From: a virus
DNA: 43,384 nt
Strand: one strand, 5' to 3'
IMG/VR virus record: IMGVR_UViG_3300042312_000024
Coordinates: 1 to 43,384 of that record
Part shown: one piece after another, positions 38,957 through 39,870 of the stretch
Numbering within the stretch: position 1 is the first letter of the stretch
Layout of the letters: every line of letters begins with the position of its first letter
Position numbers and translations under genes: made by a program
The notes under the pieces: model-generated
Told to the model about the DNA's origin: nothing
The model's database searches: none
What the model saw: the letters and a program-made list of their open reading frames with translations, nothing else

Positions 38957-39145
38957 TCAGCTCACAAAAAAGACCGACCGCTTGCCGTTCGTCCCGTGGC
39001 GGGCTTCGTAACGCTCCGCATCACGCAGACGCTTGGCGCGCTTCCTCTCGGCATCCGGGCGCATGTCCAGAACGGACACGGTGCGGCTGAACTGGCAGAA
39101 GCGGCGCTTGGTCTGCGAACGAACGAGGTTGGAGTTTGCGTGCAT
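38957..39145 (-). CDS. First early gene, small basic protein (62 aa)
   Basis: A strongly basic protein with SQTKRRFCQFSRTVSVLDMR, then ERKRAKRLRDAERYEARHG, likely helical and possibly nucleic-acid-binding. ATG 39145 is preceded by GGAGGCACCCACG. An in-frame ATG at 39190 lies in a near-copy of the same start context (CACGATGCACGC), so the start region looks duplicated at 45-base distance. It is the first gene behind the host promoters, the usual place for anti-host proteins. A 13-base complement of its start site lies at 39278-39290. Confidence 0.65.
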   Translation of the reverse strand: MHANSNLVRSQTKRRFCQFSRTVSVLDMRPDAERKRAKRLRDAERYEARHGTNGKRSVFFVS

Positions 39146-39291
39146 CGTGGGTGCCTCCATTGGCACTGGTGGGAAATTGGTGGCGTGCATCGTGAACTGG
39201 GTCCGCGTTCACACCCTTACTTGCGGCGGCGTCAACTATCCCGGCCCTTTACAAGCTGCGTCCAGACTTCGGTCTATCCACGATGCACGCC
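39138..39291 (-). promoter_or_regulatory. Possible start-codon-sequestering switch
   Basis: The leader element at 39278-39291 can pair perfectly over 13 bases with the start site of the first gene (39138-39150, covering its ATG) or over 13 bases with the upstream copy (39182-39194). The two pairings exclude each other. Seen directly in the sequence; the regulatory meaning is inferred. Confidence 0.5.
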
Positions 39292-39300
39292 GAAGCGAAA

Positions 39301-39446
39301 TATACAGATATAGGTGCCCTAGCGCAGTCGTCATTGGGAGACGCTGCGCCCTACTGCCCAATACATCGGAATCGAATATCCCAGATTGCCCGGTTTCAAG
39401 ACCGTCCAGCATCGGATACCCAACCAAGGGCACCTATATCTGCATA
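39301..39446 (-). ncRNA. Structured RNA element with pseudoknot
   Basis: On the minus strand an outer 20-bp helix (39446-39427 with 39320-39301, one G-U) encloses three elements. The first is helix GGGTATCC/GGATATTC (39421-39414 with 39381-39374). Inside it is a small hairpin CGGT-CTTGAA-ACCG (39404-39391). The third is a 10-bp hairpin GCGCAG-CGTC/GACG-A-CTGCGC (39349-39322), whose loop CCCAAT (39338-39333) is complementary to ATTGGG (39362-39357). G-U pairs would be A-C mismatches on the other strand, so the minus-strand RNA is the likely functional form. No known RNA family is recognised. Confidence 0.6.
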
Positions 39447-39462
39447 CCTTTCGGGTTGTCAA
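39433..39462 (-). promoter_or_regulatory. Possible host sigma-70 promoter at the edge of the RNA element
   Basis: TTGACA (39462-39457), 18-base spacer, TATAGG (39438-39433). The -10 lies within the outer helix of the RNA element and the -35 is in a GGGTTGACAACCC palindrome, so it may be coincidental. Confidence 0.4.
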
Positions 39463-39522
39463 CCCTACTCCGGTATGCAGTGCCATAATCACCAGTGTCG
39501 CATTTGCGCTTTCACTAACTCC

Positions 39523-39870
39523 CGGGATATTCCCGACAGCGTGAGGGTTCATCCGATCCGCGCAAAAGCTGCTGCGGGTTCTCTTTGGGACGCACAATCC
39601 TTGTGCCTGATTATGGCGTAAAGCCAACCCTGTCGGAATCCTCATCTTGGGCCGCGCCTGCCCGCTATTACCCGGGCATCTTGTGCGTTGGCGGAATTGC
39701 ACCGCAGATTGCACAAGGCGAGTTTCTAGGCTCGCACCCTCCGCTATACTCTCGGCCCACCAACGGGCGTCACGTGTGGAGGTTGTATGGCGTAGGTCGC
39801 ATCTCGGGTGACTCTCCCGGCTTGCGCCGGATGCCTGCTATCCGATCAACACTAGCCCGCCATCGGGCTT
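39523..39870 (-). other. Cluster of leader hairpins
   Basis: Perfect short hairpins follow one another. They are CGGGA/TCCCG (39523-39535), GCACAA/TTGTGC (39592-39606) and CTTGTGC/GCACAAG enclosing GCGG/CCGC (39680-39717). Further on are CCGGC-GCAA-GCCGG with a GNRA loop (39817-39830) and AGCCCG/CGGGCT (39854-39869). The TTGTGC/GCACAA words of the second and third can also pair with each other, allowing alternative folds. Nothing coding is seen. Confidence 0.6.

Follow-up and report, generated by a model that had tools for sequence, protein, structure and literature searches.

In T7-like lytic phages the control of the first genes is usually credited to promoters and not to RNA structure; the locus considered here carries a conserved RNA fold directly upstream of the first early gene. 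The window, by which we mean the whole analysed stretch of 43,384 bases, is a virus record (IMG/VR record IMGVR_UViG_3300042312_000024) similar to the Pradovirus phages (Autographiviridae) that infect Xanthomonas and Stenotrophomonas. A preliminary description had noticed at 39301-39446 a compact, pseudoknotted RNA on the minus strand, closed by a 20-bp outer helix and lying in the early leader. The stem, a strand that may switch partners and the knot are all kept despite changes of the letters, and this suggests that an RNA control element not described before acts as infection begins.

The early leader and its first gene

The minus strand is the direction of the early genes, and a scan found on it two promoter-like sites, 40534-40506 and 39967-39939. 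The latter, a consensus match of the type TTGACA-17-TAGGAT, is the final host-type promoter ahead of the leader and has an equivalent place in relatives. From there to the first early gene extends a non-coding leader of almost 800 nt. The gene itself (gene 1; 38957-39145, minus strand) encodes a small, basic protein of 62 aa that belongs to PHROG 15315, a family of unknown function, has homologues in 33 phage records and gave no Pfam match; its start was set at 39145 and not at the in-frame upstream ATG at 39190, as the former fits the relatives. In relatives, too, the element lies in the early leader ahead of this gene: the domain occupies the equivalent place in 17 records or loci, the window included, and always directly precedes the same gene 1.

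The Shine-Dalgarno sequence of gene 1 sits inside a small hairpin, GUGCC-AAUGGA-GGCAC (39151-39166, minus strand), whose stem is invariant in 15 aligned sequences. Between this site and the fold the window carries an extra 16-bp hairpin (39182-39291, minus strand), seen in the helix listing and in the comparison of spacers and absent from most relatives; the window, Titan-X, L13.2 and F5 all have inserts at this place, which resemble closed hairpins. In the window, GCGTGCATCGTGG is a perfect 13-nt complement of the gene-1 start region (sites 39290-39278, 39194-39182 and 39150-39138), and it pairs also with a nearby copy of that region, a possible second strand exchange that would concern the window only.

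A long duplex kept by compensatory change

The analysis confirms the 146-nt fold and shows it to be an RNA on the minus strand. For 39301-39446 the minus strand gives a minimum free energy (MFE) of -73.6 kcal/mol (z = -6.6), which none of 200 shuffles equalled; the plus strand also folds well (-57.3, z = -5.8), as is expected of an inverted repeat. The outer helix, which we call P3, is present as first described with 20 bp and reaches 23 bp when its neighbours are included (39449-39427 with 39320-39298), and no other unbroken helix on the window's minus strand is as long, the runner-up having 16-17 bp. All 17 Pradovirus-type leaders, counting the window, possess it unbroken at 23-27 bp. A duplex of at least 20 bp, or about two helical turns, is what is expected of an RNase III site, and P3 has this size in the 17 leaders.

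Compensatory changes in relatives had been named beforehand as the test of the structure, and they are found. In the alignment of 15 sequences 100% of the cells of P3 are paired, with two-sided changes in 11 of the 20 counted pairs (including the outer B:C pairs discussed below); for the inner part of the helix, 39427-39439 with 39308-39320 on the minus strand, the count is 8 of 13 pairs, again with 100% of cells paired. Over 14 phages P3 contains 15 G-U pairs and no A-C mismatch, so that the RNA is the minus-strand one, as G-U pairs in the window had already suggested; this is also the direction of the early promoters.

A replaceable interior with a predicted pseudoknot at a fixed place

The 106 nt enclosed by P3 in the window (39321-39426, minus strand) are unrelated in sequence between phage types; across leaders the length of the interior varies from 71 to 140 nt, with no obvious common sequence between types. 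The inner helices described earlier stand in part: the hairpin with the UCCCAAU loop belongs to the MFE structure, whereas for the 8-bp helix the MFE favours a longer, G-U-rich form. The reported match between the loop CCCAAT and an upstream ATTGGG yields the best-scoring pseudoknot of the interior, although in the nested fold the AUUGGG strand is partly engaged in a weak 4-bp hairpin. The putative knot is of the H type (39321-39363, minus strand), formed by UAUUGGG (39363-39357) with CCCAAUG (39338-39332) and by GCGCAGC (39350-39344) with 39327-39321, and it ends right at P3; for quality and place together the shuffle P is 0.003.

This position recurs in other phages. In 10 of 11 interiors, which correspond to six of seven independent types, the best H-type pseudoknot lies at most 3 nt from the 3' strand of P3, and shuffled interiors place it there in 5-13% of cases each; taken together, knots of this quality at this site have a P of about 3e-7 to 4e-6. 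Simple stacking energies and thresholds of our own choice were used in the scan, and these values speak for the position and not for the detail of the knot. The pseudoknot is thus supported, in prediction, by its conserved position across unrelated interiors and not by covariation of its own pairs. An interior that can be replaced in sequence and still keeps a knot at a fixed place raises the question of the knot's role. The interior also offers a possible contact to the upstream leader, as GAATATCCCGGG (39532-39521) can form 12 bp with TCTGGGATATTC (39385-39374).

One strand with two partners

The boundaries 39301-39446 enclose a genuine fold and leave out two elements, an upstream partner (39501-39447) and the Shine-Dalgarno hairpin (39166-39151). 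The 5' part of the domain reads GGUGAC-N-AUGGCACUG-(A)-CCGGAGUA-GGGUUGACAGCCC-GAA-(B)-(P3), and the 3' part (P3')-(C)-spacer-CAGUGCCAAUGGAGGCAC-start. Strand B (GGUAUGCAG, 39440-39448, minus strand) may pair upstream with strand A (CUGCAUACC, 39472-39480), giving a hairpin that we call P1 with A as its 5' arm, or downstream with strand C (CUGUAUA, 39301-39307), giving the outer part of P3, a helix that extends to 39298 through G-U and A-U pairs. Both alternatives emerge from covariation and from the comparison of types. What was described as a self-contained element is compact indeed, but it represents one of two alternative folds that have strand B in common, and it makes up the 3' portion of a larger, conserved leader RNA.

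In the alignment of 15 sequences four of the nine A:B pairs are changed on both sides, and in none of 500 shuffles were the covariation scores of A:B and of P3/B:C reached; versions of the helices slid along the sequence fail. Since the sequences are related this shuffle test is a lenient one, and more weight was put on the number of independent types. There are four such types, in which A, B and C co-vary as sets: CUGCAUA/UAUGCAG/CUGUAUA in the window, CUGCUAG/CUAGCAG/CUGUUAG in f20, CUGUAUG/CAUACAG/CUGUAUG in Prado and CUGUAAG/CUUACAG/CUGUAAG in XAJ24. B fits fully the A and C of its own type, and across types the fit is mostly 4-6 of 7 positions, with the exception of Prado A and C, which go with B of the window. 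In addition, the Prado/DoCa group has gained one further P1 base pair on both arms. As the two helices compete for B and nevertheless co-vary, both folds appear to be under selection, that is, the mutually exclusive pairings A:B and B:C both appear to have been kept by evolution. Two exclusive helices with a common strand, each conserved, are what defines a bistable leader; covariation behind each of two alternative folds is uncommon, and a few mutations would allow a direct test.

The distal part of P1 (39450-39471, minus strand) runs GGAGUA, then a capping hairpin P2 (GGGUU GAC AACCC), then GAA. P2 shows a U-G/U-A change, and AGUA and GAA are invariant in 15 sequences. At the level of sequence this is an AGUA/GAA internal loop flanked by two helices and can be assigned to the sarcin-ricin (bulged-G) type, with which it shares AGUA opposite GAA, two supported helices and invariance; it differs from the known motif in lying within the switching hairpin of a phage leader. 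Searched with a model of the P1 hairpin, nine phages not used in building it gave no convincing match.

A further pairing was considered between A0 (UGGCACUG, 39478-39485, minus strand), which is near-invariant, and its complement C0 (CAGUGCCA, 39168-39161, minus strand), which overlaps the Shine-Dalgarno hairpin. Tentatively, A0:C0 could open this hairpin; the pairing is predicted in some phages only, shows no covariation and is broken in L13 and GF1.

Three folds were compared, one with A:B, one with B:C and one that adds A0:C0 to B:C; their predicted energies lie mostly less than 10 kcal/mol apart. In a growing transcript the predicted ensemble shifts from A:B to B:C once C is added, these figures being equilibrium predictions and not kinetics. 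The predicted equilibrium is strongly on the B:C side when P1 receives no bonus, and in most phages the balance becomes more even with a bonus of 4 kcal/mol, an assumed size for what the motif or a bound factor might contribute.

The larger leader RNA and its distribution

Upstream of the domain, 24 Pradovirus-group phage records share a conserved and covarying leader RNA of about 390 nt (L015:760-1150, and the same stretch in L004-L011, L017, L018, L021 and L023). The 5' flank of the domain in the window (39467-39547, minus strand) is homologous to it (nhmmer E = 4e-5; the window was left out when the model was built), this homology being detectable only from 39547 on. A hairpin of the leader core (NNNN-UGRRAGY-NNNN-CA), whose stems show compensatory changes, is found again in SB3, DoCa7, SB2 and phi31, sister-genus phages where it lies upstream of the first genes (L024:1309, L025:2079, L034:1098 and L035:814); it was not found in the window, and no P3-like helix was found in the leaders of these four phages. 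The leader domain is kept by compensatory change across a genus infecting Xanthomonas and relatives, and the larger leader RNA is partly common to sister genera.

Pattern scans of viral contigs yielded Prado (one contig that we take to be this phage), XAJ24 and a few others. The loci L013 and L014 are identical to the window over the stretch compared and add no information, and a further viral match (L031) was spurious. When bacterial genomes were searched with a single exact pattern from the leader core, a weak test, no match appeared. The claim that the RNA belongs to no known family withstood a search of the window and eight relatives against Rfam 15, where no leader match appeared and only a tRNA in XAJ24 reached the threshold. 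A search for publications on such leaders yielded nothing relevant.

A possible switch and competing explanations

From the above it would be logical to suggest, with about even confidence, that the domain is a bistable cis-regulatory part of the leader that gates translation of gene 1 as well as processing, the latter through a duplex that is a candidate for RNase III. During transcription B would pair first with A, forming P1 with its sarcin-ricin-type loop, and as long as P1 stands P3 would be limited to about 13-16 bp. When C emerges it would displace A from B, and P3 would become an unbroken duplex of 20-27 bp round the interior that ends in the pseudoknot. A host or phage factor holding P1 might keep the short form; the long form would place a duplex of a size suited to RNase III ahead of the hairpin that holds the Shine-Dalgarno sequence of gene 1. 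Cleavage of the leader at this duplex and access of ribosomes to gene 1 could then both depend on the fold adopted. Comparison of the leaders establishes P1, P3, the alternative pairings of A, B and C, the strand, the place of the predicted pseudoknot and the invariant Shine-Dalgarno hairpin; that the RNA switches in vivo, that RNase III cuts it, that gene 1 responds and that a factor binds is what we infer. Three points run counter to the scheme: P1 could be a folding intermediate only, as the equilibrium predicted without a bonus strongly favours B:C; the extra hairpins part P3 from the ribosome-binding site in the four phages named above; and A0:C0, the would-be link to the Shine-Dalgarno hairpin, lacks covariation. 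We may go further and suggest, more tentatively and with rather less than even confidence, a new class of phage regulatory RNA, in which a three-strand switch, with a sarcin-ricin-type hairpin as its base, controls the formation of a long duplex round an exchangeable pseudoknot module and so times the cutting or the translation of the first gene of infection.

The most probable of the rivals, though in our opinion an unlikely one, is that P3 is a plain RNase III processing site like those of the T7 early RNA, where cutting trims the early mRNA and frees the interior; P1 would in this case be a folding intermediate of no regulatory importance. An unbroken helix of 23-27 bp in every phage despite the change of sequence would fit selection for duplex length, and the position in the immediate early leader, upstream of the first gene, is also suitable. 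Left unexplained are the A:B covariation, the invariant AGUA/GAA loop and the fixed position of the pseudoknot. Distinctly less probable is a reading in which a large leader RNA acts mainly in trans, for example as the binding partner of a host protein or defence factor, with the domain as an exchangeable arm at its periphery. The extent and covariation of the upstream 390 nt in Pradovirus, the recurrence of a core hairpin in sister genera with compensatory changes and the exchangeable interior of P3 agree with it; on the other hand, the position of the domain ties it to the ribosome-binding site of gene 1, and the sister genera have the core hairpin without P3 and P1. A decoy role towards RsmA/CsrA, which would be one form of such action, is not supported, as the 2-6 ANGGA sites do not exceed shuffles. 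We regard it as very improbable that the inverted repeat acts as DNA, for instance near a packaging or replication end of the genome, although it is close to the terminal repeat of SB5 (repeat 1-637, element after 999) and folds on the other strand too: the G-U pairs without A-C mismatch on the minus strand, the U that C retains facing G or A, and the presence of a strand B common to A and C together with a Shine-Dalgarno hairpin point to RNA.

Other candidates were tried and rejected. A transcription attenuator does not fit, as there is no terminator-like site in the leader and P3 is followed in the window by UAUAUUUCGC, without a long U-run. A leader peptide or N-terminal extension starting from AUGGCACUG is contradicted by a frame that is not kept, with a stop at codon 4 in XAJ24 and at codon 16 in DoCa4; in sequences read by eye it is open into gene 1 in f20 only. 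The functions originally proposed for the fold were a processing signal, a nuclease-resistant end, a small RNA and a regulator of early translation; the first and the last of these are still the likeliest.

The proposed switch can be compared with known systems. Like bistable leaders of the riboswitch or attenuator type, the phage domain has one strand with exclusive upstream and downstream partners in a 5' leader beside a ribosome-binding site; it differs in having no recognised ligand pocket, no terminator hairpin with a U-run and no Rfam match, and in that its second form is a long duplex round an exchangeable interior with a pseudoknot. The early leaders of T7 and lambda N carry RNase III sites, long duplexes in the immediate early leader upstream of the first gene. 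P3 is likewise such a duplex and a candidate cleavage site, but it encloses a structured interior of 71-140 nt and competes with an upstream hairpin. As a long, complex and conserved phage RNA the whole leader recalls the large ornate RNAs GOLLD and ROOL (PMC12286853), from which it is distinguished by the lack of an Rfam match and by serving as 5' leader to an early mRNA of T7-like lytic phages.

Individual relatives carry further elements near the leader. In XAJ24 a tRNA gene, annotated as tRNA-Trp, lies just upstream of it (L023:962-1033), and a similar one was not seen in the seven other relatives searched. In the leader of BUCT700 (L026, roughly 860-895) we noticed by eye TAGAGGCCATAGCGTCTCTATTTTT, a hairpin resembling an intrinsic terminator upstream of the first gene.
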